28,938 bases of DNA from a virus. The translations under genes and the position numbers were made by a program. The DNA lies in the IMG/VR virus record IMGVR_UViG_3300025141_000541, positions 1 to 28,938 of that record, one strand, 5' to 3'. The notes beneath the pieces are model-generated. The model searched no databases and was not told the origin of the DNA. It was given only the letters and a program-made list of their open reading frames with translations. Positions 3,926 through 28,938 of the stretch are shown here, in pieces (position 1 is the stretch's first letter; each line of letters opens with the position of its first letter).

Positions 3926-3954
3926 TTGACTTTTTAAATAAAAACACTTATAAT
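3926..3954 (+). promoter_or_regulatory. Promoter of the replication operon
   Basis: TTGACT (3926-3931) and TATAAT (3949-3954) are separated by 17 bases, close to the bacterial sigma-70 consensus. Read the Bacteroidota way, TTG is followed after 20 bases by TATAATTG, one mismatch from TAnnTTTG. It sits directly behind a terminator and about 45 bases before the gp32-like gene, exactly where a promoter is needed. Confidence 0.65.
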
Positions 3955-3998
3955 TGTTTAGTTAGAAAAAATAATTTATTAATTAAAAAAAAAATAAG

Positions 3999-4883
3999 AT
4001 GAGCAAAACAACATTAGAATCAATTTTATCACAATACGAAAAAAATAGTGATGGTGGTAAAAAACCAAAAGTATCCAATGAGGATAGATTAAAAAAGTAT
4101 TTCACAGAAAAACTTAAAAAGGGTGAAAATAACACAACTAAGTCATTTAGAATTCTTCCAGGAAAAGAAGGAAGTTCTCCATTTGATGAAATCTATTTAC
4201 ATGAAAGAGAAGTGAACCATAGATATGAAAAAATTTATTGTAATAAATTAAATGATGGTGAGCATTGTCCTTTATGTGAAGCTGAAGAAGCTTTAAAAAT
4301 GGATGGTAGTAAAAAAGCCAAAGATATGGCAAAAGAATATACTGCACGTAAATGGTATGTAGTTAAAGGTATTGATAGAGATAATGAAGATCATGGTGTT
4401 AAATTCTGGAGATATAAACATAAATATACAGGAGATGGGGTACAAGATAAGTTAATGCCCGTTTTCAAATTAAAGGGGGATATTACAGATGCCAGAGAAG
4501 GTCGCGATATTATTATTACAACAAATCGTAATGATAAGGGTTGGAGTGTAGTTAGTTCTATTATGGCTGATGATGTTGCATTATTAACATCAGATACCGA
4601 AAAAGCCAATGCTTGGTTTAATAATGAAGAAACATTTAGAGATGTTTATGCTAAAAAATCACCTGAATGGTTAGATATAGTAGCAAAAAATATGACACCT
4701 ATTTGGGATTCAGGATTATCTAAATACGTTGCAGAAGAAGAAAAAGAAGAAACCGAAACTGCATCGTTAGAAGATGAAATTAATTTACTTAAAAATGATG
4801 TAGTTACAGATACATTAGTAAATGATAGTGAAGAGGTTGATGTAACCCCACTTGAAACTAGTGATGATGAACTACCATTTTAA
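3999..4883 (+). CDS. 32: Single-stranded DNA-binding protein, gp32-like
   Basis: This 294-residue protein fits the T4 gp32 family, which coats single-stranded DNA at the fork and during recombination and repair. The N-terminus (TTLESILSQYEK) resembles the cooperative-binding region. Residues 68-93 hold His68, Cys81, Cys90 and Cys93 (the CNKLNDGEHCPLC block), nearly matching the H-x12-C-x9-C-x2-C zinc site of T4 gp32. The core continues with RKWYVVKGIDR and VKFWRYKHK strands carrying aromatic and basic residues. From about 245 the C-terminus is acidic, as expected for partner recruitment, but ends in DDELPF, the form seen in bacterial SSB rather than in gp32. The leader is A-rich (AATTAAAAAAAAAATAAG) with no Shine-Dalgarno. 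It is the first gene of the replication operon, 13 bases before uvsX. Confidence 0.88.
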   Translation: MSKTTLESILSQYEKNSDGGKKPKVSNEDRLKKYFTEKLKKGENNTTKSFRILPGKEGSSPFDEIYLHEREVNHRYEKIYCNKLNDGEHCPLCEAEEALKMDGSKKAKDMAKEYTARKWYVVKGIDRDNEDHGVKFWRYKHKYTGDGVQDKLMPVFKLKGDITDAREGRDIIITTNRNDKGWSVVSSIMADDVALLTSDTEKANAWFNNEETFRDVYAKKSPEWLDIVAKNMTPIWDSGLSKYVAEEEKEETETASLEDEINLLKNDVVTDTLVNDSEEVDVTPLETSDDELPF

Positions 4884-4896
4884 AAAGTAAATTAGT

Positions 4897-5946
4897 ATGG
4901 CAAAAAAACCAATTAAGAAGAAAAAAACTGATTTTTCTAACATCAGAAAAAAGTTTTCATCCAAGGAAAAATATAAAGAACAAAAATATTTTGACTTGGG
5001 TGAAGCTTTTCAAAAAGCAACAGGTATTCCTGGACCAGCAATGGGTCAAATTAATATGTTATTGGGTCACAGTGACACAGGAAAAACTACCGCATTACTT
5101 AAAACTGCGGTTGATGCCCAAAAAAAAGGAATACTCCCAATTTTTATTATAACTGAACAAAAATTTAGTTTTCAATTCGCTAAACAATTAGGGTTAGAAA
5201 CTGAATATGTAGAAGAGGTAAATGAAGAAACAGGAGAAATAGAAGGTTATTGGGATGGATTTTTACTCTATAAATTAGGTTTTGACTATATTGAACAAGC
5301 ATTTGAATATGTTACTGAAGTATTAAATGGTCAAAAAAACGGAGAAATACCCCACGATATAGTTTTCTTATGGGATTCAATTGGAACTATTCCTTGTAAA
5401 ATGAGTTTTGAAGGTAAAGGTGGAAACCAACATACCGCTAGAGCTATTTCTGAAAAATGGGGAATGGGGATGGCGCAACGTATTACTTCGTCTAGAAAGG
5501 AAACATCACCATATACTAATAGTATGGTATTTTGTAACCAACCTTGGGTGGAGTTACCCGATAACCCATTTAGTCAACCTAGAATCCAACCAAAAGGTGG
5601 ACAATCTATTTATTTATCTTGTTCATTAGTATTCTTATTCGGGAATCAAAAAAGTGCTGGGATATCTAAATTAAATGCAACCAACAAAGGTAGAAAAGTA
5701 AATTTCGCAGTTAGAACAAAAGTAGGGATACATAAAAATCATATGAATGGTTTAGGATATGCGGATTGTAGAATATTGGCCACTACTCATGGTTTTATAG
5801 AAGATGATAAAAAAGCCATTGATGATTATAAAAACAACTATAAGGAATATTGGTCTGAAGTATTTGATAGTGTAGGAGAAGAAGTAGATTTCAAAATAAC
5901 CGAAGGAGAAACTATCGAATCACCAGTAGAATATTCTGATCAATGA
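4897..5946 (+). CDS. uvsX: UvsX/RecA-like recombinase
   Basis: The 349-residue product is a RecA-family strand-exchange ATPase of phage UvsX type, acting on single-stranded DNA coated by the gp32-like protein encoded just upstream. The Walker A motif GHSDTGKT is at residues 57-64, preceded by PAMGQINMLLG, as in RecA/UvsX. Walker B is IVFLWDSIG with Asp160. A KWGMGMAQRI helix near 187 and the VFCNQPW segment (about 211-217), containing the Asn-Gln that couples ATP state to DNA binding in RecA proteins, follow. GGQSIYLSCSLVFLF (about 234-248) is the next core strand. The N-terminus is very basic (KKPIKKKK). Length is close to T4 UvsX. The C-terminus is acidic, as in RecA proteins. Confidence 0.92.
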   Translation: MAKKPIKKKKTDFSNIRKKFSSKEKYKEQKYFDLGEAFQKATGIPGPAMGQINMLLGHSDTGKTTALLKTAVDAQKKGILPIFIITEQKFSFQFAKQLGLETEYVEEVNEETGEIEGYWDGFLLYKLGFDYIEQAFEYVTEVLNGQKNGEIPHDIVFLWDSIGTIPCKMSFEGKGGNQHTARAISEKWGMGMAQRITSSRKETSPYTNSMVFCNQPWVELPDNPFSQPRIQPKGGQSIYLSCSLVFLFGNQKSAGISKLNATNKGRKVNFAVRTKVGIHKNHMNGLGYADCRILATTHGFIEDDKKAIDDYKNNYKEYWSEVFDSVGEEVDFKITEGETIESPVEYSDQ

Positions 5947-10950: not shown

Positions 10951-11334
10951 ATGGCAGAGAGTAGATTTATAAATATCGATTTTCCCTTTAGGGATAGTAA
11001 AGAAGGATTTTATTTTAATTTAACAAAAACAAATGAATCCGCAATACGTGCAGATCTTTTACATTTATTATTAACTAATAAAGGAGAAAGATTATATATG
11101 CCAGATTTCGGTAGTGATTTAAAAAAATTTATTTTTGAACCAAATGATGGTATAACACATATCGACATTAAAAATAATATAAACGAAACAATAAAAAAAT
11201 ATATACCGAATCTTATAATAGATTCCATTGAATTTAAAAACAACGATATTGAAGAATTGATAGTTGTTGAGGTAAAGTATACAGTAACAGAAGGAGCATT
11301 TACATCTTCAGATGTTGTTGAAATAACATTTTAG
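10951..11334 (+). CDS. 25: Baseplate wedge protein gp25-like
   Basis: The 127-residue product belongs to the gp25 (GPW/gp25) family, the small lysozyme-like wedge protein that joins the baseplate to the first sheath ring in contractile tails. Diagnostic parts are the helix AIRADLLHLLLTNKGERLYM followed by PDFGSDLKKFIFEPND (about residues 50-66), the conserved R-x3-P-x-FGs and F-E-P region, then a helix NNINETIKKYIPNL and a C-terminal beta pair (EELIVVEVKYTV). Length is typical. It opens the structural operon after a terminator and stops 2 bases before the gp6-like gene, a gene pair kept together in many contractile-tail phages. The region between the terminator and the ATG is very AT-rich, and no promoter could be defined confidently. 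Confidence 0.88.
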   Translation: MAESRFINIDFPFRDSKEGFYFNLTKTNESAIRADLLHLLLTNKGERLYMPDFGSDLKKFIFEPNDGITHIDIKNNINETIKKYIPNLIIDSIEFKNNDIEELIVVEVKYTVTEGAFTSSDVVEITF

Positions 11335-11336
11335 AT

Positions 11337-13154
11337 ATGGCTAAAAAAATAGATTATAACGCTAGGAATTTTGCGCAAGTAAGAACAGAACTTGTTGGAT
11401 ATATAAAACAATATTATCCAGAAATATTTTCAGATTTTAATGATGCATCAGTAGGTATGATGTTATTGGAACTAAATGCTGCGGTAGGTGATATGTTATC
11501 ATTTCATACTGATAGGATGTTTAATGAAACACAAATTGATTATGCGCAAGAAAGATCATCAGTATTAGAATTAGCTAGAACATTTGGGTTAAATATTCCA
11601 GGTAAAAGACCAAGTATAACAATAGTAGATTGGTCGGTAATAGTACCAACAGCTGGAGATACCTTTGACGTATCTTATGCCCCTTTACTATTAAAAGGAT
11701 CACAAGCAACTGGTGCAGGTAAAGTTTTTGAATTAGTAGAGGATTGTGATTTTTCATCACCATTTACAACAGGAGGAATACCAAATAGGTTGATAATTCC
11801 AAACATTGATGACTCGGGATTAGTATCAAATTATACTTTAACTAAAAGGGAGATAGTATTAAATGGAACAACAAAAATTTATAAAAGAGTAATAAATCAA
11901 GATGATTATAGACCATTTTTAGAGGTTTTATTACCAGAAGATAATGTTTTATCTATTGAAAATATAATTACACTAGAAGGTACAAATTTAACAACTGAGC
12001 CAACATTGAATCAATTTAATGAATTTGATAATAACTTCTATGAGGTAGAAGCATTGGCACAAGCTGAGGTATATATCCCAGATGGTAATAGAAAATCAGA
12101 TAAAACTGGTATAACCCCAGGCAGGTGGATAAATTCACCAAAAAGATTTATAAAAGAATTCACCGATAATGGTTTTTGTAAAATTATATTTGGTGGGGGA
12201 CAATCAGATATATCTGAATTAAATACGTTTATTGGTTGCAGGGGTCAAATAGATAGAATAGGTGATTTTGTTAATAATCTTTCATTAGGAGAGATACCAG
12301 TACCCGCAAATACGATGTTTGTTAAATATAGAATAGGTGGAGGAAATAGTAGTAATATTGGTCCAAATACCTTAACTAGTTTAGGGAATATAAGTATAAC
12401 AATTAATGGGGACGATTCAACACAAAATCAAGAAGTTAGAGATAGTTTAGAGGTTAATAATCCCATACCAGCAATTGGTGGAAAAGAACAACCTTCAGTT
12501 AATGAGGTTAGGAACTTAGTTAAATATAATTTTGCTGCGCAAAACAGGTGTGTCACCATTAAAGATTATCAAAGTAGAATACCATTAATGCCTGGTAGGT
12601 ATGGTGTTCCATTTAGAACTGGTGTGTGGGAAGAAAGAAATAAGGTAAATGTAACAGTATTATCATTAGATGAGAATAGTAAATTAAGTAATCAATCCAC
12701 ATCTACATTAAAAGAAAATATTGCAGAATATTTGGCAGATTTTAGAATGTTAAATGATTATGTTACAATAAAAGATGGAAGAATTATAAATATAGGTTTT
12801 GAAATTTCATTATTTTTGGATAAATCAATATCTAAAGGTGAAATTATTACAGATGTTATTGATGCTGTTACTGATTATTTTGATATTAATAATTGGGAAA
12901 TGGGGGATAATATTTATTTGGCTCAATTAATTGAAAATATTAATAATGTAGGTGGTGTGTTAAATGTTACAGAATTAAAGGCTTTTAATAAGGTTGGTAA
13001 TACTAAATATTCATTGAATAGTATATCACAACCTTATGTTGATGACGCAACTAGAGAAATTGATTTATTGGGGGAATATACTTTATATGGTGAACCAGAT
13101 TCAATGTTTGAAATAAAATATCCAAATGTGGACATAAAAGTTCGAGGAAAATAA
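11337..13154 (+). CDS. 6: Baseplate wedge protein gp6-like (baseplate J family)
   Basis: The 605-residue protein fits T4 gp6 / baseplate J, which dimerises to form the wedge core and binds gp25. The N-terminus DYNARNFAQVRTELVGYIKQYYPEIFSDFNDASVG, with MMLLELNAAVGDMLSFHTDRMFNE, is the characteristic start of this family. The middle is beta-rich with GRWINSPKRFIKEFTDNGF and a glycine-rich IIFGGGQSD segment. The C-terminal part has NEVRNLVKYNFAAQNRCVTIKDYQSRIPLMPG, the conserved 'A..R.VT..DY' element of baseplate J proteins, then an alpha/beta domain with KENIAEYLADFRMLNDYVTI. Length is close to T4 gp6 (660). It follows the gp25-like gene at 2 bases. Confidence 0.87.
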   Translation: MAKKIDYNARNFAQVRTELVGYIKQYYPEIFSDFNDASVGMMLLELNAAVGDMLSFHTDRMFNETQIDYAQERSSVLELARTFGLNIPGKRPSITIVDWSVIVPTAGDTFDVSYAPLLLKGSQATGAGKVFELVEDCDFSSPFTTGGIPNRLIIPNIDDSGLVSNYTLTKREIVLNGTTKIYKRVINQDDYRPFLEVLLPEDNVLSIENIITLEGTNLTTEPTLNQFNEFDNNFYEVEALAQAEVYIPDGNRKSDKTGITPGRWINSPKRFIKEFTDNGFCKIIFGGGQSDISELNTFIGCRGQIDRIGDFVNNLSLGEIPVPANTMFVKYRIGGGNSSNIGPNTLTSLGNISITINGDDSTQNQEVRDSLEVNNPIPAIGGKEQPSVNEVRNLVKYNFAAQNRCVTIKDYQSRIPLMPGRYGVPFRTGVWEERNKVNVTVLSLDENSKLSNQSTSTLKENIAEYLADFRMLNDYVTIKDGRIINIGFEISLFLDKSISKGEIITDVIDAVTDYFDINNWEMGDNIYLAQLIENINNVGGVLNVTELKAFNKVGNTKYSLNSISQPYVDDATREIDLLGEYTLYGEPDSMFEIKYPNVDIKVRGK

Positions 13155-13221: not shown

Positions 13222-13689
13222 ATGGGATGTAATGAATGTAAAAAAAAACAAGGACAAAAAAATGAATCAACGACAATACCGTTAATACCAGAATCTATCA
13301 CCAATGGAGATTTTAGTGGAAATTTTCTTTTTAAGATAGTCGCATTTGGTGTAATAATTATTGCGTTACCATTTTTAATAATTATATTACTTGGTCAGAT
13401 GTTTATGGCGTTTTTTTTACCTAAATCTACACTTAATTTACCCTCTAAATTCGTTAAGTTTTTTGAAAATATAATTAAATGGTATGTTAAACGGAGAATT
13501 AATAATGAAGTAAATAGAAGAAAAGAGGAGTTTAAGAATACTACGGATTATAGTAGTTCTGATGATTATGAGGTTTATGAAACTGAAGAATATACAACAG
13601 AAGATATATTAGAAGATTCGGAAACACTTGAATGGGAAAATTTATCTAACCCTAAAGTAGAAGAAGGTAATAACAAAAAAGGTGAATAA
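13222..13689 (+). CDS. Small single-pass membrane protein, 155 aa
   Basis: Function not recognised. The protein starts MGCNECKKK, a CxxC pair beside a basic run. A long hydrophobic stretch at about residues 36-66 (FKIVAFGVIIIALPFLIIIL then LGQMFMAFFL) can span a membrane. It is followed by an amphipathic basic helix (FVKFFENIIKWYVKRRINN) and a Ser/Glu/Tyr-rich acidic tail. There is no cleavable signal peptide: the hydrophobic segment starts too far in. It lies between the gp6-like gene (67 bases after it) and the 1453-aa structural gene (7 bases before it), so it is likely made late with virion parts. It may act at the host membrane during assembly or entry, or serve the cysteine-rich neighbour, but this is inference. 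Confidence 0.75.
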   Translation: MGCNECKKKQGQKNESTTIPLIPESITNGDFSGNFLFKIVAFGVIIIALPFLIIILLGQMFMAFFLPKSTLNLPSKFVKFFENIIKWYVKRRINNEVNRRKEEFKNTTDYSSSDDYEVYETEEYTTEDILEDSETLEWENLSNPKVEEGNNKKGE

Positions 13690-13696
13690 TGAATAA

Positions 13697-16600
13697 ATGT
13701 CCAAATCAGTTAGAGTAAGAACAACCCCAAATGGTGATGATAAATATATTAAGGTTGAATTAAAACAAGATTTTGATCTTCTTGAAATTTTAAGTTTAAA
13801 ATTAAGACAAGAAGACGTATATCAAAATTTTTGCTCTAATTACGGTGTTGTTGCGGGTAGGGTTAGTGTCAATAATGGTTTTGGGTTACCTAATGTTAAG
13901 GTATCTATTTTTATACCTATAACACCAGAAGATTTACAAAATGAAACTATACGGACATTATATCCGTATGAATCCCCCCAAAAAGAGGATAAAAATGAAC
14001 AAGGTATTAGATATAATCTATTACCAAATCAACAGCAAAGCTTTGATCATACACCGGTAGGTACTTTTCCTACAAAAATAGAAATATTAGATAATGATAC
14101 CACTATTGGAATACATGAAAAATATTATAAATATACAACTACGACCAATGATGCTGGAGATTTTATTTTATTTGGTATACCAATAGGAAACCAGTTATTA
14201 CATTATGATTTAGATTGGAGCGATGTAGGGTTTTTATCTCTTAGACCTTATGATCTAATAGAAAGAGGGTTTAATAAAAACCTTTTTATGTCACCATTTA
14301 AGTTTAGTAGTTCACCGAATCTAGATAATTTACCTCAATTACAGAGCCAAAATTTTAATGTGTTGGTTGAACCTTTTTGGTGTGATGATTTAAGTACTGG
14401 TAGGGTAGTTGGTATCACTAGAAAGGATATCGCAATTACTACTATGGATTTAACACCTTCAGCAACATTTTTTGGTAGTGTATTCAGTGATGATGAAAAA
14501 GATTCAGTAAGTAAAAATTGTAGGCCGAGACGAAAAACAGGAAGATTAAGTGAGGTTATTACTACATCGGGTAAATTAGAAGTAATTAGAAGGACAGTAG
14601 ATGGCGCGATAGAAAAATATGATATTCCTGATGATGCATTAGATGATAATGGTAATTGGGCACTACAATTACCAATGAATATACGTAAAGTAGTTACTGA
14701 TGAATTTGGTAATTTAATTCCTAGTCCAGATGGTGTTAGTGGTATTGCAACAGAAGGTGATTATAGGTTTAGAATCGCCATGGATAAAACAAATAATGAT
14801 AAAAGATTACGACAAAGGGCAAAATATTTGGTTCCAAATATGACAGGTAATTATAAGTTTGGTACATATCCTGGAGTCGAAGGTTCAATTCCTTTTAACA
14901 TTAATGAACAATTATCAACCAATACTGTGGGGACAGCCTATTCTGCGCATACCACAAACCAATATAACTACTTGGAAGATTTTTTCACGTTTAGATGGAA
15001 AAAAGTATACACTATTAGGCAATTTATTGGTAGATACCAGAGTAGTAAAAGAGATGGTAGGAGAACCTTTGTCGGTATAAAAGATATTGAGAAAGCTGAA
15101 GGGGTAAATAAATTCCCATTTAATAGATTAGATACACACGTAAATCCATTATATGCTATTTTGTGTCTTATAATGAACTTGACAGGTATGATATTGTCCT
15201 TAATTAATTGGATTATTTTATTATTGAACTCAATAATTACAATGATATGTCAAATTAAAATACCTGTTGGTGTGTGTGTTGACTTTTGTTTATATTTAGG
15301 TGTTACAACTATATGTAGTCAAAATTATAAAGACTTGTGTGAAACTAGTTATTCGGGGTGTTCAGCAGGATCTACTGCTTGTAATAAGTGTGAATGTACT
15401 GGTGCTGGACCAGGTTGTGGATCTAGAGATAGTTACCTAAAGGTAAAATTAAAATTTAAATGTATATTTTCTGGTTTATTTTGTAAAAAATGTCAATTTT
15501 TATGTCCAGGAGGTAAACAACATAGTTGTTGTAGATGTGCCGACCCCGCCTCCGCCACTTGGGATTACGGATGTCCTTGTAACGAAGGGGTGTGTATTGA
15601 AGGTGATCTTGATGAAACATCAGCAAATAAAAAGTGTTGCAGTGATTGTTGTATAAAAATACCAATGATAGAACTTAACTGCGCTGAAGATTCAAGCTTT
15701 AATAACATAACACCATCTATACTCCCCACACCATTTGCGAGTAAAGTATGTAATTCTGTCTCTATTAAAGGAGTTTGTAGAGACTGTGCAGGTACTAGTC
15801 TCCCATTTATCAGTGCATGGGTTCAATGTATGTTGGAACCAATAGCCGCTTGGTTAAACATGTTAAAATTTGATTTTTATAATGACTGGGTAAATGGTTC
15901 ACTATATTTTCCATTATTTAAAAGAAAGTATAAAGTAAAAAAGAGGAAGAGTAAAGCTGGTCAAATTAAAAGTGATAAGTTTTGTGATTTTGATTGTGCA
16001 CCTACATTTCAACAAGATAGCGAAAGATGCTTTAGAGTTACTGTTACTAATCCAACACCATCGGATATAACCGTTAGGATTAAAAAATTCAAGATTGGAT
16101 ACACTGGATCTGGCGCATGGTGTGATATAACATTTAAGGGTGGAGAGACTCAAACAGGATATAACAGACAGGACACGGATATCGATGGATGGGCATGTGG
16201 AGATTTAACTGATAATTCAGGTCCCAATAACTATGGTTCTTGGAAAATGGCAAAAAGAAATGCATATTCAGCCCTACTAGTAAAGGGAACTGGACCCAAC
16301 GATACTGATTGCTCTGTAAATTTTAGAAAACTCTACAAGTCATCACCTGGTCCAAAACTGGGTGTTAATGACTTTGATGATTTTAATACTAGTCTTCTTG
16401 TTATTACTGAATCTGAGAAGCTAAAACAGGCAGAACATGATAAACCAAAATACATAGAAGTAGAAGACCCACTTACTGGTATAAGATACCAAAAAAACTT
16501 TGGTGGTCACGGTCACCATAGAAACAAATGTAATACAGTTTTTAGGGTTGAGGGGAAGGAATATTGGCAACCTGGGAGTAATTGTGTTGGTTCAACAAAA

Positions 16601-18058
16601 GAAGACGGTGAGATGACTGGTGCTGGTTTTACAGTAGATGAGGCTGCTATTGAACAAGAAGAAATGATATCTAACTGTGGTTCAACAGATAGTGCACAAT
16701 GTGAATTTAGTTCATGTCAATGGGGAGCATGTAGATGTAAAAAACATAAAGAAGGTGATGATATCAATGAGAAAAGACCATGTTGTAATTGTAATCCTAG
16801 ATATAATCCAAATAATATTAAACATGGTATTATTACAATGGAAGACTATGTATTATATTATGCATCTATCTCACCAGTTAATATAGATACACAAAATAAT
16901 AACGGAGGTTGGTCTGCCTCCAATCCAACTCATAACCCTGTAAATATAGAATATAAAAGTAATTTATTATTCCCTACTAATATTTGTGAAGTAGGTAGCT
17001 CAGTTTTTTGTGATATAGATGAGATACCATTTATAATGGATCAAATACCACCAACAACGTTTAGTATAAGTGAAGAAGCACAAAAATACAACGAAGGACA
17101 AGGCTCAGGCAGTGGAGATGGATTTTCTGAATATGACCCTATTGAGTTAGAGGAAAAAGATAAAGATAGTGCATCTATTAATATTAATGGGTATACATCA
17201 TTTGGTTGTTTTGGTGCTAAATGTTTAAATACACAAGCATCCGTAAATCAATCACAGATAGGTGTAGATACCATTGATAGAAATGATATAGGGTTAGAAA
17301 TTGGTAAATGTAAATTGTTATTTGATCATGATGAAGAAATAAGAGAGTATTTTTGTAGAAGATTTTCTGGGTATAAAAACAAGTATCTAGATGTTCACTA
17401 CCAAAGACCTGGATCGGCCCAATATGATAATGTATATAATACATATCCACCAGGTGTATTTTCCGGAAGTACACTATGGTATTCAATTGATAATGGGGTA
17501 CCAGCACAAGGGACGATAAATGATGAAGAAGAAATTCTTTTTGGTGATAGGTGTGGTATACAATATAGTAGTTACACTTTTAACTTTAATATTGATATAG
17601 ATGGAACACCAGTTAATTATGGTGCCCCAGTATCAAATCAAATAGGTGATATTGATTACTTTTACGGTCTTGCACCATTCATAACCAGTGGTAATGATAT
17701 GTCATTCGCACCAGTATTCCCGACCTATGAAGGAAATGTTACGGTTTATGGGACAGATAATTATGCTCAAACTACAACACCATCTATAAACATAGATAGT
17801 AATGGTGGACAAGCACATAGAGGAATAAACTTCGCAACTTCACAAACACCTTATTATTTTTATTTTGGTATTGTTAAAGGAAAAACAGCATTACATAAGG
17901 TAGTGTCTAAATATTTTGCAGATAAAATAGATGAAACAACATTAGAAAAATTAAGCGGAGAAAAAAGAAATAACCAATCAAACTTTAAAAACGTAGTTAA
18001 GAATCCTTTAACTCTTTATAAAACATGTTTAGGTACTAGTATGAAATCAACGAAATAA
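13697..18058 (+). CDS. Large virion protein with Cys-rich hydrophobic core, 1453 aa
   Basis: A very large protein in the baseplate operon where T4 carries its largest wedge genes; homology to gp7 or gp10 cannot be shown by eye. Residues about 48-75 (YGVVAGRVSVNNGFGLPNVK) and about 148-165 (TTNDAGDFILFGIP) look like a carboxypeptidase-regulatory-like beta domain split by an insertion. Residues about 484-545 are strongly hydrophobic (LYAILCLIMNLTGMILSLIN, WIILLLNSIITMICQ), resembling membrane helices. Residues 518-697 then carry about 28 cysteines in paired patterns: CNKCEC, CKKC, CCRC, CPCNEGVC, CCSDCC. A second cluster near 994-1045 has CRCKKH and CCNC. The N-terminal 480 residues have only three Cys. 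Residues about 735-755 are very basic (FKRKYKVKKRKSK). It is probably a structural, metal-binding or disulfide-linked component of the baseplate. Confidence 0.75.
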   Translation: MSKSVRVRTTPNGDDKYIKVELKQDFDLLEILSLKLRQEDVYQNFCSNYGVVAGRVSVNNGFGLPNVKVSIFIPITPEDLQNETIRTLYPYESPQKEDKNEQGIRYNLLPNQQQSFDHTPVGTFPTKIEILDNDTTIGIHEKYYKYTTTTNDAGDFILFGIPIGNQLLHYDLDWSDVGFLSLRPYDLIERGFNKNLFMSPFKFSSSPNLDNLPQLQSQNFNVLVEPFWCDDLSTGRVVGITRKDIAITTMDLTPSATFFGSVFSDDEKDSVSKNCRPRRKTGRLSEVITTSGKLEVIRRTVDGAIEKYDIPDDALDDNGNWALQLPMNIRKVVTDEFGNLIPSPDGVSGIATEGDYRFRIAMDKTNNDKRLRQRAKYLVPNMTGNYKFGTYPGVEGSIPFNINEQLSTNTVGTAYSAHTTNQYNYLEDFFTFRWKKVYTIRQFIGRYQSSKRDGRRTFVGIKDIEKAEGVNKFPFNRLDTHVNPLYAILCLIMNLTGMILSLINWIILLLNSIITMICQIKIPVGVCVDFCLYLGVTTICSQNYKDLCETSYSGCSAGSTACNKCECTGAGPGCGSRDSYLKVKLKFKCIFSGLFCKKCQFLCPGGKQHSCCRCADPASATWDYGCPCNEGVCIEGDLDETSANKKCCSDCCIKIPMIELNCAEDSSFNNITPSILPTPFASKVCNSVSIKGVCRDCAGTSLPFISAWVQCMLEPIAAWLNMLKFDFYNDWVNGSLYFPLFKRKYKVKKRKSKAGQIKSDKFCDFDCAPTFQQDSERCFRVTVTNPTPSDITVRIKKFKIGYTGSGAWCDITFKGGETQTGYNRQDTDIDGWACGDLTDNSGPNNYGSWKMAKRNAYSALLVKGTGPNDTDCSVNFRKLYKSSPGPKLGVNDFDDFNTSLLVITESEKLKQAEHDKPKYIEVEDPLTGIRYQKNFGGHGHHRNKCNTVFRVEGKEYWQPGSNCVGSTKEDGEMTGAGFTVDEAAIEQEEMISNCGSTDSAQCEFSSCQWGACRCKKHKEGDDINEKRPCCNCNPRYNPNNIKHGIITMEDYVLYYASISPVNIDTQNNNGGWSASNPTHNPVNIEYKSNLLFPTNICEVGSSVFCDIDEIPFIMDQIPPTTFSISEEAQKYNEGQGSGSGDGFSEYDPIELEEKDKDSASININGYTSFGCFGAKCLNTQASVNQSQIGVDTIDRNDIGLEIGKCKLLFDHDEEIREYFCRRFSGYKNKYLDVHYQRPGSAQYDNVYNTYPPGVFSGSTLWYSIDNGVPAQGTINDEEEILFGDRCGIQYSSYTFNFNIDIDGTPVNYGAPVSNQIGDIDYFYGLAPFITSGNDMSFAPVFPTYEGNVTVYGTDNYAQTTTPSINIDSNGGQAHRGINFATSQTPYYFYFGIVKGKTALHKVVSKYFADKIDETTLEKLSGEKRNNQSNFKNVVKNPLTLYKTCLGTSMKSTK

Positions 18059-22863: not shown

Positions 22864-25800
22864 ATGGCGAATAATAATAGTAATAAGGTTAAAGTTACTG
22901 GTTATGCTAAAAGAACATTTTTTAATAGTAATATTGAATACAGGGATTTTAGTGATGACTTAGTTGGGTTGCAACTTACAAGTGAAGGTGGCACTCCCTT
23001 ATTCACTATGGGTAATTTTAAAATTACCACAAATTTATCGCCAAAAGTTAATAAATATTATAATCAAGGTACGTATTCTTTTTTTTATACTTTAGATAAT
23101 TTAAGTACATTAATTGAAAGTATAAACATTCAAAAAAATCAAAAAGCTCAATTAAATTTAGATCTTACTAACCCATTAACTTATGTTTGGTATGGATCAT
23201 CATCGGAATTAATTAGAATATCGTTAGAAAATCTTAAAAACCAATTTCCTGCAGCTATTTATGTAGATAATAAAGTTGGTAGTATCACAGGAAATAATAT
23301 TACTAATTTTAGTTATGATTTAGTAAGAGATGAATCAACATTTACGGTTAATAGTAGATATTTTGTTAACCCTTTTAGTATAAAATATACTATTGACTCA
23401 GCAATTATTGGAACAGAGGAGGAAATTAACCCACTAAGAAATTTAACACTAAAATATAAAAGTTATGTTATTGAACATAGTGGTATTACTAAAGATATAA
23501 TAGATTTTAGTGGTTCAGTACAAACTACAAATTCTGATGTTATAATTAAAGTTAAAGGAAACCCATTTCCAGAAATTACAGGGTTAAATATTTCACAATA
23601 TTCATTTTTAAATCCAATATTTGAGGGATCAATACAATATTTTATTAAACCTAATGTAACAAAACAAGATGACTTTTTTGCGTCATTAAATAATTTACAA
23701 ACCAATTTATTAAGAAGAGGAACATTACCATTATATACAAGTACTTTTAGTGTTCCTGAAATAACTGATGAGGGGGTCACCGTATACACACAAAAAACAT
23801 TAACTTTTCCAGTTTTATCGGATGGTTATAACCTAAACTTTTTTGATGGGATTTATATAACCTATTTGGATGAAATAACCAAAATAGGTGAAGATTTAGA
23901 TGAAACAAGAACAGATATAATGAAGCGACAATATGTTGCGGATGTAATAACTGGTTTTGATACCATTCCTAGAGGTGATGGTGATAACTTAGTGTTGGAT
24001 GGTGCAAAAGCCACTAAATTAATAAGATTATATGGGGTTTCTTTTGATCAAGTTAAAAAATATATAAATGGTATAAAATTTGCACATGTTATAACTTATG
24101 GTAAAGAAGATAATACTCCAGATTCTTTAGTAAAAGATTTAGCTAATATGTTGGGGTTATATACCCAATTTGGAAGTACTAGACAAGGGAGAATTGTAAC
24201 ACCATTTCTTTCTAATTTAAATTTAGAACAAATAGATATAATATTATTTAGGAGATTAATCTTAAATGTTGCTTGGTTGTGGAAAAGTAAGGGGGCAAGA
24301 AAAGCAATAGAATTTTTATTTAGATTTATTGGGGCACCAGAATTATTAGTAACATTTGATGAACATATAGTTATTGCAGATAAACCCTTAGACATATCAA
24401 AAATTAAAAAACTATTATATCTTTATACTGGGTCTTCAGATATAAGTAATTTACCTTTTGATAAGGATGGGTTTCCATCGCCATTAAAAGATGGTGCAAT
24501 TACTATTGTGGGATATACAACAACAATAACCACCGGTACAACATCAGGAACAACAAATACATTCTCTCCGATTTATGATACTATGTGGTTTCAAAAAGCT
24601 GGTGGTTGGTATAGAGAAACCGGGGGTGATAATTCACAAATTGACATAAATACAGGTAATAACCCACATGCTGGACCATATGATGGAGGTGCAGAATATC
24701 TACAACAATTTACAAAATGTCCATTACCCGATTTTAATAAAAATATTGCAATTAATGTAACTGGTACAACTATATATGAAAATCATTTTTTAAATTATAA
24801 TTATGGATTCGTAAATGGGACATCACCAGATTCTGAAATTTATATTACCCCATTAGAAAGTACAAATAATCAGTTTATTGAAAATTGTGTGGATATTAAT
24901 TTCAGTATAGTTAATGCACCCAAACTTTCAGGAGGGACAAGCATTTATGAGTTATTATGTATTGAGGCGATGGAAGAATATGAGAGATGGTTAGAATTAA
25001 TAAAAGAAGACTGTGAATTAATATACTCCCCAGAGTGGTATATTGTTAAACAAAATTATGAGGTTGCATCTACAAATTATAGTCAGGAGTTAGTAACTGC
25101 ACAATGTAATGAAAATCAATCCTTAGAGGTTTGTATTGATTTTAAAGATATAGAAATTATAGAAAATCCTTGTGATAAATATGAAGTACAATTTCTAGAT
25201 AATGGATTCATTATATTTATTAATGAAAATGGTAAACCAGTAACTTTTGATGAATTTCCACAATGTTGTGAGTCGGCGGGAGGACAATACTTTAGTTATA
25301 TTACACCTAGAGGTCAAGAGGCATATTTTTGTGCTTATCATACCCCATGTATTGGAGAACCAATTGGTGTTACAGAAGAAAATATAATTCTATGGGAAGT
25401 AGGTAATATAAATACATTACCAGAAGACATTTACTATGTTAATGGAAATTGTTATCAACAGATCCCAAATGATTCACAAGCAAACCCTAACTGGGATGAA
25501 CATAAATGTACGTCAAATATCAATAGTTACACAAACACACCTAACATTACAGGATATAATGATAATACTAACATATATAATTTTTTAGTTAACAATCCGA
25601 ATGCTCCCGAAATAGGTTCTTGTTTCACACCAGTAAATTGTGGGGTATACCAAACAGTTGAAAGTAGTATTGAATGTTGTGTTTATCATGGATATACCTA
25701 TCAAGTCGTATCTTATATGGGTCAAAGTATTATTGTATGTATACCACAATTGGATGGGACAACATCAAATAGTGACGGAAGAAAAATAAGTGATGGTGGA

Positions 25801-28800
25801 ATTAATTTACCAAAAGTAACAGGTTATAACGAATATAAACTAAATTCTAATTTAAATGCAAATCCAACGGATGCTGAAACAATTGCAACTCTCACTAATT
25901 ACGCAGAAGGGTCATATGTTAAAGGTATTGTAGATTCTTCTAATAAAGTAAGTACTGATTTTGGATCAAATAAACTAAATTCAGAATTAATGGATTGTGC
26001 ATCTTGGGAAGTGGCAGAAATTGATCAATATGGTAGAATATCGTTAAAACCTATTTATCCTGTGGATAGTACAGAAAGATTAGATTGGTTAGATACGGTA
26101 GAAACTGGCGCGGATCTTTATAAAGAATGTTGTATATCAAAAGGATACATCTATGGGACATTCATTATTAATTCTATTACGCAACAATTAATTTTAGTTG
26201 GTGATGAACCAGTTTCACAACCAACATGGAATGCTTGTGTAGATACTAATTTTATTCCTTGTACTGGCCTTAAAGATTTAAAATTAATTTTAGGTAGTAA
26301 TGGTTTTAGTGGGTTTTATTTACCACAAACAGACCAACATGGTTGTGATTGTGAATTAAATATCAGATTTGATTATATGATTAAATATACCCCAACATCA
26401 TTAATAAATTGTGCAAATTGTGGTAATTGTGAATGTGAAACTACTGGGGTAGGAACTATACCCACTACCCCAATTCATGTTTCACCTACTTTAACCTCTT
26501 CAACTACAACTGGATCTGTAACAGTAGTAGGTGACCAACCAACTGGGTTAGGTGCATCAACAGGATTATTAAATACGGTACCGGTACCAACCGAACATAT
26601 TGAGGGGTCGGTAGCTCCTTCGATACCACTTCCTGCACCAACAATACCACCAAATAATATTTCTAATATTCCTTGTTTACCTACTATTTTCCACGATCAA
26701 ACTTTAGAAAGTTTATTTTGTCCAGATTTTATAACATTTGTTAGTTCTGAAGAAGAAAGTGATTTACTATTAAATAATTTTGATGGGAATGATGGTGAAG
26801 AAGAAATCTGGACAAAACGAGTAATACAATTAAATCCACCAGTAGAATGTTGTGAAGCTTTAGGTGGTCAAGTAGTAGAATTGTATGGTAAACCTTCTCC
26901 ATTTAAAGAATTGTATAGTTTCAAGTGGAATCAAATAATGGAAGATATTAGTAATAATACATTACCAATTGGAACTGACCCCAATGTGAGTACTAATATT
27001 AATATTTATGATAATATTTTAACACAAATAGGGTTAATAAATGATGGTAGTTGTTTTGATAGAGTAGAAGGTTCATTTTCTTTTTATCCTGTATGCGATA
27101 ATACCATATTTAACTTAACCCCTAACGGTCAAATTATTGATATTGACTATAACTATATAACAACTCAGAGTATATGTGCATTATTTCCACCCGGTGATTG
27201 TATGTATTGGGCGGGACTATTATTTAATAGTAGATCAGTATTAAATAAAACAATTGAAATACAAGGAATATTAGAAGATTGTATTTCAGGAACTACTGGA
27301 GGAAAAAGTCTTTCAAATATAGATAGAAGTTTAATTACAACACAAGTAGAAATATCAGAAACAAATTTTACTAAGAAAAAATTAATTGATGATTCCCAAA
27401 ATAAAAAATTGGAACAACAAACAATTATTGATGAAATAAATAAAGAATTAAGCGGTATTCAAAAAAGAAAAGTATCCATCAATAGTCTTCAAAGTGAACA
27501 AACTACATCAATAGAATGTGGAGTATACCAACAACAAATTAATATCCTTGATGGGTTTGATGTGGCTGAATATTGTAGAAATAATTCAACAATAACTACA
27601 CCAGAACAAGAATCTAATGAGTATAATATTTGTGTTAATGAAAAAACTTCAGAAATAAATAAAGAAAAAGATGTTTATAAAAAATTAATAACTGAATGTA
27701 ATATAGCTAACACATCTAATGTTTTACTTAATCAAGCAAAATCTGATGGAAATACTGAAAAATCATCTTTATATACCCAACAATATAATGACGCATTAAA
27801 TAGAATAGACGATTTAACCCCCTCAACTAATTGTGACATACCAGAATTAAATACTAAATCTAGTGTAGAAGAACAACAACAAAATAATATAATTGATAAT
27901 ACTAAGGTAGTATCTGACATATTAGATGTTGAGCCAGAAACTTTAAGAAATGGTCCCAATATAACAATAACAGAAACACAAAATTTAACATTAAATAGAA
28001 TTAAAGTTACAGACGCTTCTCATATCACTAGACTTACTAATAGAAAAACAGAAGCGGTAAAGGTAATTAATAAACTAAATGGTGATGAGAAAGAAACTAT
28101 CAATCAAATAAATTTAAAATTAAGTAATTTAAACACTAAATTAGAAGAATTCCAAGCTAAAAAAGGAGAAGCTTCCCAACCACAATTAAAATCACCATGT
28201 TGTGTATCATTTTTAGGTAAAATAAATGTAATAATACAAGATTTATATCAACTAATTTCTGATATGGAAATATCAGCTCAATTATGTTATGATGAATGGG
28301 GCAATACAATACAAAGTGGTTATGATAAATTATTAAATGATTGTGACACATATTTAAGTTTTATTGATGATTTAAAAATAAATTTCACAATAGAGGTAGA
28401 TAATAATAATATTGGAACAATACCACCAAGTTTAACTCATTATAATTTAACAACATTACCACTTACTAATAATATAAATCCAATATGGGAGTTTACACCA
28501 CAAAATTATAGTGGTGTTATAATTGAAGGTGATGAATATGATGAAGTTACTGTAAAAGATCAAATAACACAAGAATTGATTAGTAATGGATTTACAGGAC
28601 TAACTAATATATTTGAACCACAATGGCAAACATTAAATTTTAATATTCCCACATCTATTTGTGAAGCACTTAAAAAATGTTACCCAAATAAACAATTTTT
28701 TATTGGTATCGAAATTGAAAATTATGAATGTGATGTTTGTTTATTAATTGATAATATACAAGTTAATTTTAATGAATGTGACATCGTAACTAAAATTACT

Positions 28801-28938
28801 ACTGAGTCTTGCCCAATGCCCGATTTAAAGTGTATTATAGATAATAGAAAATCTTGGGTATATTCAGATAAAGGTATAGAATATGTAAACGCATTAAATG
28901 ATGGTAGTTGTGTAGATGTCGAAATAAATTGTGAAGAG
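22864..28938 (+). CDS. Giant tail/baseplate protein with Cys-Cys repeats (3' end outside window)
   Basis: The frame starting at ATG 22864 (MANNNSNKVKVTGYAKRTF) is open to the last base, giving at least 2025 residues; I read it through without a stop. The N-terminal part is strand-rich. Residues about 459-486, with NVAWLWKSKGARKAIEFLFR and a following FIGAPE, resemble the KGT..I.fLL..fG motif of gpI-like tail proteins. From about 800, a motif CC-x3-G-[GY]-x-[YV] recurs at 801, 938, 1089 and 1329; the first two are followed about 20 residues later by another Cys. CANCGNCEC is at 1183-1191, followed by a Thr/Pro/Ser-rich linker (about 1192-1274). Residues about 1480-1780 are polar and helical with coiled-coil character. 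The C-terminal part is beta-rich. Likely role: distal baseplate or fibre-bearing, host-contacting protein. Confidence 0.8.
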   Translation, partial: MANNNSNKVKVTGYAKRTFFNSNIEYRDFSDDLVGLQLTSEGGTPLFTMGNFKITTNLSPKVNKYYNQGTYSFFYTLDNLSTLIESINIQKNQKAQLNLDLTNPLTYVWYGSSSELIRISLENLKNQFPAAIYVDNKVGSITGNNITNFSYDLVRDESTFTVNSRYFVNPFSIKYTIDSAIIGTEEEINPLRNLTLKYKSYVIEHSGITKDIIDFSGSVQTTNSDVIIKVKGNPFPEITGLNISQYSFLNPIFEGSIQYFIKPNVTKQDDFFASLNNLQTNLLRRGTLPLYTSTFSVPEITDEGVTVYTQKTLTFPVLSDGYNLNFFDGIYITYLDEITKIGEDLDETRTDIMKRQYVADVITGFDTIPRGDGDNLVLDGAKATKLIRLYGVSFDQVKKYINGIKFAHVITYGKEDNTPDSLVKDLANMLGLYTQFGSTRQGRIVTPFLSNLNLEQIDIILFRRLILNVAWLWKSKGARKAIEFLFRFIGAPELLVTFDEHIVIADKPLDISKIKKLLYLYTGSSDISNLPFDKDGFPSPLKDGAITIVGYTTTITTGTTSGTTNTFSPIYDTMWFQKAGGWYRETGGDNSQIDINTGNNPHAGPYDGGAEYLQQFTKCPLPDFNKNIAINVTGTTIYENHFLNYNYGFVNGTSPDSEIYITPLESTNNQFIENCVDINFSIVNAPKLSGGTSIYELLCIEAMEEYERWLELIKEDCELIYSPEWYIVKQNYEVASTNYSQELVTAQCNENQSLEVCIDFKDIEIIENPCDKYEVQFLDNGFIIFINENGKPVTFDEFPQCCESAGGQYFSYITPRGQEAYFCAYHTPCIGEPIGVTEENIILWEVGNINTLPEDIYYVNGNCYQQIPNDSQANPNWDEHKCTSNINSYTNTPNITGYNDNTNIYNFLVNNPNAPEIGSCFTPVNCGVYQTVESSIECCVYHGYTYQVVSYMGQSIIVCIPQLDGTTSNSDGRKISDGGINLPKVTGYNEYKLNSNLNANPTDAETIATLTNYAEGSYVKGIVDSSNKVSTDFGSNKLNSELMDCASWEVAEIDQYGRISLKPIYPVDSTERLDWLDTVETGADLYKECCISKGYIYGTFIINSITQQLILVGDEPVSQPTWNACVDTNFIPCTGLKDLKLILGSNGFSGFYLPQTDQHGCDCELNIRFDYMIKYTPTSLINCANCGNCECETTGVGTIPTTPIHVSPTLTSSTTTGSVTVVGDQPTGLGASTGLLNTVPVPTEHIEGSVAPSIPLPAPTIPPNNISNIPCLPTIFHDQTLESLFCPDFITFVSSEEESDLLLNNFDGNDGEEEIWTKRVIQLNPPVECCEALGGQVVELYGKPSPFKELYSFKWNQIMEDISNNTLPIGTDPNVSTNINIYDNILTQIGLINDGSCFDRVEGSFSFYPVCDNTIFNLTPNGQIIDIDYNYITTQSICALFPPGDCMYWAGLLFNSRSVLNKTIEIQGILEDCISGTTGGKSLSNIDRSLITTQVEISETNFTKKKLIDDSQNKKLEQQTIIDEINKELSGIQKRKVSINSLQSEQTTSIECGVYQQQINILDGFDVAEYCRNNSTITTPEQESNEYNICVNEKTSEINKEKDVYKKLITECNIANTSNVLLNQAKSDGNTEKSSLYTQQYNDALNRIDDLTPSTNCDIPELNTKSSVEEQQQNNIIDNTKVVSDILDVEPETLRNGPNITITETQNLTLNRIKVTDASHITRLTNRKTEAVKVINKLNGDEKETINQINLKLSNLNTKLEEFQAKKGEASQPQLKSPCCVSFLGKINVIIQDLYQLISDMEISAQLCYDEWGNTIQSGYDKLLNDCDTYLSFIDDLKINFTIEVDNNNIGTIPPSLTHYNLTTLPLTNNINPIWEFTPQNYSGVIIEGDEYDEVTVKDQITQELISNGFTGLTNIFEPQWQTLNFNIPTSICEALKKCYPNKQFFIGIEIENYECDVCLLIDNIQVNFNECDIVTKITTESCPMPDLKCIIDNRKSWVYSDKGIEYVNALNDGSCVDVEINCEE
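26440..26685 (+). other. Thr/Pro/Ser-rich linker inside the giant protein
   Basis: Residues about 1192-1274 of the giant protein are dominated by Thr, Pro, Ser, Val and Gly (for example TSSTTTGSVTVV and PSIPLPAPTIPPNN). Such segments are flexible linkers between folded domains. It separates the cysteine-motif part from the later helical part. Confidence 0.7.

Follow-up and report, generated by a model that had tools for sequence, protein, structure and literature searches.

A conserved cysteine-rich protein with a membrane-like helix encoded among the baseplate genes of large contractile-tailed phages

The baseplate gene block and the 1453-aa protein family

The window, which is the whole 28,938-nucleotide stretch of IMG/VR virus record IMGVR_UViG_3300025141_000541, contains a gp25-like and a gp6-like baseplate wedge gene followed by a 155-aa ORF, a cysteine-rich ORF of 1453 aa and a series of further ORFs (Table 1). 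The genes for gp25, gp6, the 155-aa ORF and the 1453-aa protein, then ORFs of 672, 312, 312, 303 and 2025 aa, follow one another in the same order in the 48 long close loci, to the extent that each locus covers them. Distant loci, where tested, also have a gp6 homologue directly upstream of the family protein. The preliminary description of this region placed the 1453-aa protein in a baseplate operon. This is confirmed, as the protein is encoded inside a conserved baseplate gene block with gp25 and gp6 upstream in the long close loci.

Table 1. Coordinates of genes, protein regions and motifs in the window.
Feature	Coordinates	Strand	Basis
gp25-like baseplate wedge protein	10951..11334	+	PF04965 8.5e-13; phrog_261 4.1e-22
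gp6-like baseplate wedge protein	11337..13154	+	phrog_10646 2.5e-21; phrog_219 9.6e-20
155-aa partner ORF with N-terminal CxxC and membrane-like segment, directly upstream of the 1453-aa ORF	13222..13689	+	
CxxC, residues 3-6 of the 155-aa ORF	13228..13239	+	alignment
Hydrophobic segment, residues ~37-66 of the 155-aa ORF	13330..13419	+	alignment, hydropathy
1453-aa Cys-rich protein, 57 Cys	13697..18058	+	ORF; ~90 close relatives, end-to-end alignment, MSKS start
Residues 1-483, conserved Cys-poor N-terminal region common to the whole wider family	13697..15145	+	alignments
Residues ~45-175, probable CarboxypepD_reg / transthyretin-like beta-sandwich	13829..14221	+	PF13620, Foldseek, AF2
Residues 484-518, single 35-residue hydrophobic helix with small/polar heptad stripe	15146..15250	+	hydropathy, alignments, two overlapping models
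Residues 519-588, hypervariable Cys-containing insert (0-15 Cys in relatives)	15251..15460	+	alignments
Residues 589-767, conserved Cys core (17-23 Cys in relatives)	15461..15997	+	alignments
CxxC (C596, C599) soon after the hydrophobic region, kept in the wider family	15482..15493	+	alignments
FDFYNDWVNGSLYFPLFKRK motif, conserved in the wider family	15869..15928	+	45/46 full-length distant relatives; largely invariant in close ones
GGHGHH motif, residues 936-941, followed by invariant C945	16502..16519	+	close-relative alignment
SQTPYYFYFGIVKGKTALHK, conserved C-terminal motif	17840..17899	+	close-relative alignment
Giant Cys-rich ORF, 2025+ aa, cut off at window edge	22864..28938	+	

The 155-aa ORF is present in all 81 close loci and begins with MxCxxC, and the CxxC occurs in all aligned rows shown. 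Its KD21 of 2.91 is the highest in the window, and it and the 1453-aa ORF are the only membrane-like ORFs there. Similar ORFs occur in several intermediate clades. They are missing from the most distant clades, in which the family protein's own hydrophobic region is longer on average.

The giant downstream ORF contains 56 Cys, none of them before residue 619, and its relatives reach 3036 aa and 103 Cys. Pfam, PHROG and NCBIfam scans of this ORF return no match; it contains a segment, GARKAIEFL, which we take to resemble P2 gpI and T4 gp7. In a 198-kb relative (L127, G004 51128-53107), a 659-aa ORF in a fibre-like gene region contains 44 Cys (6.7%), so cysteine enrichment touches several tail ORFs of these phages.

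The start codon of the 1453-aa ORF is supported by its relatives, which begin with MSKS. The preliminary description reported a dense cysteine cluster at 15143-15790, corresponding to residues 483-698, and a recount on the translated ORF agrees with it. Exactly 28 of the 57 Cys lie in residues 518-697, only C46, C229 and C275 lie in the first 480 residues, and the motifs CNKCEC, CKKC, CCRC, CPCNEGVC and CCSDCC are all found. The density in residues 518-697 has P = 1.8e-21 relative to the cysteine rate of the other window ORFs. Shuffled versions of the protein (n=2000) contain a maximum of 20 Cys in any 180-residue window.

Profile scans assign the 1453-aa protein to no family in Pfam, PHROG or NCBIfam, and in the same collections it has no sequence or profile homology to T4 gp7/gp10-type wedge families. 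A PDB sequence search gives one insignificant match (E 0.023), and residues 470-1453 have no viral match at E<=0.001. A tblastn search with seven family members finds no full match in 50,697 phage records, so the family marks a blind spot of cultured phage biology. For one distant member, tblastn gives a short, weak match within gp7-type genes of cyanophages, apparently a shared insert, and the sole PHROG "wedge" match in the family is a short insert in one distant relative. Searches of the literature on cysteine-rich or membrane-anchored baseplate proteins turned up no member of the family. Comparisons by blastp, phmmer and family HMMs gave no homology to the large ORFs that follow gp6 in Mel-JY01, immuto and LR756508, and these were rejected as homologues.

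Relatives from IMG/VR number 36 in the first search and 94 (about 90 close relatives) thereafter, and a more diverse profile recovers at least 489 wider relatives. A0A8S5LA66 from Myoviridae sp. ctPuP5 (BFVD), labelled in the database as an uncharacterised protein, clearly belongs to the same family; it is a Foldseek match to the model of residues 1-780, with 36% identity over 550 aligned columns (E 1.3e-32). The module exists, is conserved and has no earlier description within the reach of these searches.

The wider family shares the N-terminal ~470 residues, the hydrophobic region, the CxxC after it, the motif NxWxNGxLY and a C-terminal FYFGLxxGxTA. In an alignment of 114 proteins, more than 90 columns of the N-terminal region are near-invariant, and C46, C229 and C275 are invariant in close relatives. 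The CxxC positions are Cys in 96 of 101 and 90 of 96 aligned wider-family sequences, and NxWxNGxLY is found in 45 of the 46 full-length distant relatives. An equivalent of SQTPYYFYFGIVKGKTALHK, PFYFYFGLxxGxTA, is present in the distant-relative consensus. Hoc-like domains occur in the C-terminal part of 4 of 20 distant relatives, which suggests that this part is exposed. Close relatives differ widely in the length and composition of the insert at residues 519-588 (15251-15460), which resembles a hypervariable exposed loop.

Residues ~45-175 probably form a CarboxypepD_reg / transthyretin-like beta-sandwich. PF13620 (CarboxypepD_reg) matches 9 of 49 relatives with E<=0.01, the lowest E value being 0.0028, and does not match the window protein itself; the similarity lies below a confident level for this protein and covers about a tenth of its length. 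Parts of these residues have an AF2 pLDDT of ~65-80, and a low-confidence model gives weak Foldseek matches to generic beta-sandwich domains such as 3qec and SpaA. Taken as a whole, the AF2 models are of low quality, with mean pLDDT values of 57 and 49.

The hydrophobic helix and the cysteines

The preliminary description gave residues 484-545 the hydrophobicity of membrane helices. This stands for residues 484-520, with a Kyte-Doolittle peak of 2.22 (19-residue window) within residues 485-520, and falls for residues 521-545, which are only moderately hydrophobic and contain the conserved K521. In two overlapping AF2 models, residues 484-518 form one continuous helix with pLDDT mostly ~82-90. 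A two-helix hairpin for residues 484-520 was rejected because both models contain one helix. The helix is present in all close relatives. In 45 of 46 distant full-length relatives, a hydrophobic segment occurs at the same spot; its sequence is not conserved and its length ranges from 21 to 102 residues.

Across residues 486-518 of 52 sequences, 3 of 1716 cells are charged. Positions 487, 490, 494, 497, 501, 504, 508, 511, 515 and 518 form a stripe with perfect 3-4 heptad spacing. These heptad a/d positions are small or polar, with 2.7% bulky hydrophobic residues versus 84.8% at the remaining positions. The window protein is off-pattern at position 508 (Leu) and fits at the other stripe positions. 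Inside-out coils of this kind, with small or polar a/d positions and bulky hydrophobic residues elsewhere, are characteristic of packed membrane helices, and the pattern is reversed in soluble coils. The 1453-aa protein contains a membrane-grade hydrophobic helix without charged residues, and the segment originally called membrane-like carries, in its heptad stripe and near-absence of charge, the sequence signature of a packed membrane helix. In the simplest reading, the Gly/Asn/Thr face of the helix would mediate packing and its other faces would lie embedded in lipid. Cysteine contrast across the helix was rejected as a general topology mark, since it is 0.6% vs 4.6% in the close clade and 1.3% vs 1.4% in the wider family.

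A lack of conservation of the cysteines in homologues or a confident match to a known cysteine-rich fold with a different role had been named beforehand as possible refutations. In the 39 non-redundant, full-length close relatives, 29 alignment columns are Cys in every sequence, and profile, PDB sequence and Foldseek searches match no known cysteine-rich fold. The dense cluster is conserved within the clade of the window. It is special to this clade and is not a core feature of the family: in distant full-length members, the densest 180 residues contain mostly 4-11 Cys and up to 17.

The total number of Cys is even in 30 of the 39 close relatives and odd (57) in the window protein. On a family tree that leaves out the Cys region, the Cys number changes at least 27 times with only 6 changes of parity, and the other 19 residues have 10-16 parity changes on the same tree. 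In simulations of single-step Cys gain and loss, 6 or fewer parity changes occur in 0-1.3% of runs. When Cys are gained or lost in random blocks, 6 or fewer parity changes are reached in 1-5% of simulations at similar spread and in 30% at low spread. Whole Cys pairs enter together, such as two Cys 36 residues apart in C-terminal extensions. Tandem-mutation logic of this kind is a published means of predicting disulfides (PMC4498770), and even Cys numbers are preferred in exported bacterial proteins (PMC7678975). Neither the wider family, where the parity signal is weak, nor the downstream Cys-rich ORF, where it is absent, clearly reproduces it, and it therefore counts as moderate evidence. The Cys-rich part is most likely held by disulfide bonds, to judge from these patterns.

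Proposed role and alternatives

We consider the 1453-aa protein to have about an even chance of being a membrane-engaging, disulfide-stabilised tail-base protein of large contractile-tailed, probably Bacteroidota phages. The N-terminal region would anchor the protein in the baseplate. The helix at residues 484-518 would pack with its own copies through the Gly/Asn/Thr stripe, and possibly also with the membrane segment of the 155-aa ORF. Its aliphatic faces would be exposed to a lipid bilayer, either at infection or while the tail is being assembled, and the Cys-rich part would lie on the non-cytoplasmic or exposed side, held by disulfides instead of metal. The most likely job of such a protein would be to engage or cross a host envelope membrane on tail contraction; a role as membrane anchor in assembly ranks second. 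We infer virion location, membrane insertion, oligomer, disulfides and host from sequence. AF2 of the Cys region has low confidence and gives no usable fold, and because the models are poor overall, no fold supports this scheme. Several points count against it. Phage tails are normally assembled in the reducing cytoplasm, a relative encodes thioredoxin- and glutaredoxin-like ORFs, and 35 residues are long for a single membrane crossing.

A bolder version, quite unlikely in our estimation, is a baseplate-borne membrane-penetration module. Here an oligomer of the inside-out helix, together with the small CxxC membrane partner, would build a bundle or conduit across the membrane. The domain capping it would be locked by disulfides and may switch during entry through thiol exchange with the host envelope.

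The same cysteines could bind several Zn ions or Fe-S clusters. The CxxC pairs C596/C599 and C694/C697 and the CC doublets resemble metal knuckles, the reducing cytoplasm in which tails assemble would permit metal binding, and the neighbouring 155-aa ORF also has a CxxC. The Cys number, however, changes in twos and not in multiples of four, with 17 changes modulo 4 and only 6 modulo 2, and neighbouring pairs often differ by exactly 2 Cys. Few conserved His accompany the cluster, and profile and PDB sequence searches of the 1453-aa protein and the relatives searched match no Zn or Fe-S ligand profile. Metal binding is disfavoured on these grounds and seems unlikely. The metal-stabilised module of the preliminary description, which mentioned disulfides only as an alternative, is not supported because gains and losses of cysteines on the family tree come in twos, as expected of disulfides.

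It is rather unlikely that the helix is non-membranous and buried in a protein bundle of the baseplate or tail tube, with the protein an ordinary adhesin-bearing baseplate part. The heptad pattern is like that of a coiled-coil-like bundle, the Hoc-like domains of some relatives suggest an adhesive or display role, and cysteine richness extends to other tail ORFs of these phages. Against this, small or polar residues are confined to the core stripe of the helix and every outward face is aliphatic, so no face is left for water. The range of hydrophobic lengths among relatives is as in membrane regions, and the baseplate regions of three related phage records contain almost no comparable hydrophobic segment. 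A membrane-anchored phage protein outside the virion, acting as an assembly platform or superinfection block and located in the baseplate operon by chance, is improbable. The adjoining small membrane-like ORF, which with the 1453-aa ORF makes up the window's only membrane-like pair, is in its favour, but the size of the protein, its CarboxypepD_reg-like domain, its fixed place among baseplate genes and its relatives' Hoc-like display domains fit a structural protein better.

The T5 pb2 tape measure and T7 gp14-16 are tail proteins thought to enter membranes. In the favoured membrane-engaging reading, the 1453-aa protein would resemble them as a tail-associated protein whose strongly hydrophobic helical segment may insert into the host membrane. 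Unlike them, it is encoded between gp6 and downstream baseplate genes and has a probable N-terminal beta-domain and a Cys-rich C-terminal part, and in PHROGs and Pfam it has no family match to membrane-entering tail proteins. It shares a gene block with the T4-type wedge proteins gp6/gp7, as an operon neighbour, but does not match the PHROG wedge families. How the DNA of contractile-tailed phages crosses the inner membrane is an open question in most systems, and a conserved membrane-grade helix from a baseplate operon in hundreds of environmental phages provides a concrete protein to test. If the tail protein is disulfide-rich, the question arises of how and when bonds form in a virion built in the cytoplasm. 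If a membrane helix is indeed joined to a disulfide-held part, this would give phage tails an unfamiliar means of gripping or crossing bacterial membranes.

Phage lineage and other observations

The phages of this lineage have contractile sheaths, and sheath genes are found in 8 of the 11 large records. Their GC content is ~29-30%. The 198-kb relative has no Shine-Dalgarno excess (6 of 155 vs 6.0 expected) and has A-rich sequence at -14 to -10. Both the absence of Shine-Dalgarno sequences and an A-rich -14 to -10 region are reported for Flavobacterium johnsoniae (PMC6847099). A RecA-like ORF has matches only in Flavobacterium immuto phages. These features make a Bacteroidota host likely. The only match in genome collections (L116) is an 83.8-kb contig of the Prochlorococcus single-cell genome AG-409-L21. 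Prochlorococcus was considered as the host and set aside, as the Shine-Dalgarno absence and RecA-like match favour Bacteroidota; the virus may have infected the AG-409-L21 cell or been co-sorted with it.

In four loci (L083, L086, L087 and L088; about 3950-5690), ~1.7 kb separates gp25 and gp6, which are adjacent elsewhere, and an inserted gene is likely. In L230 (G017), a gp7-like ORF is split, with a TAG stop inside the match, for which a frameshift, an error or recoding is possible. In the window, positions 2890-2926 contain an intergenic, perfect 12-bp tandem repeat of 3.1 copies, AGATAAAAACAA.
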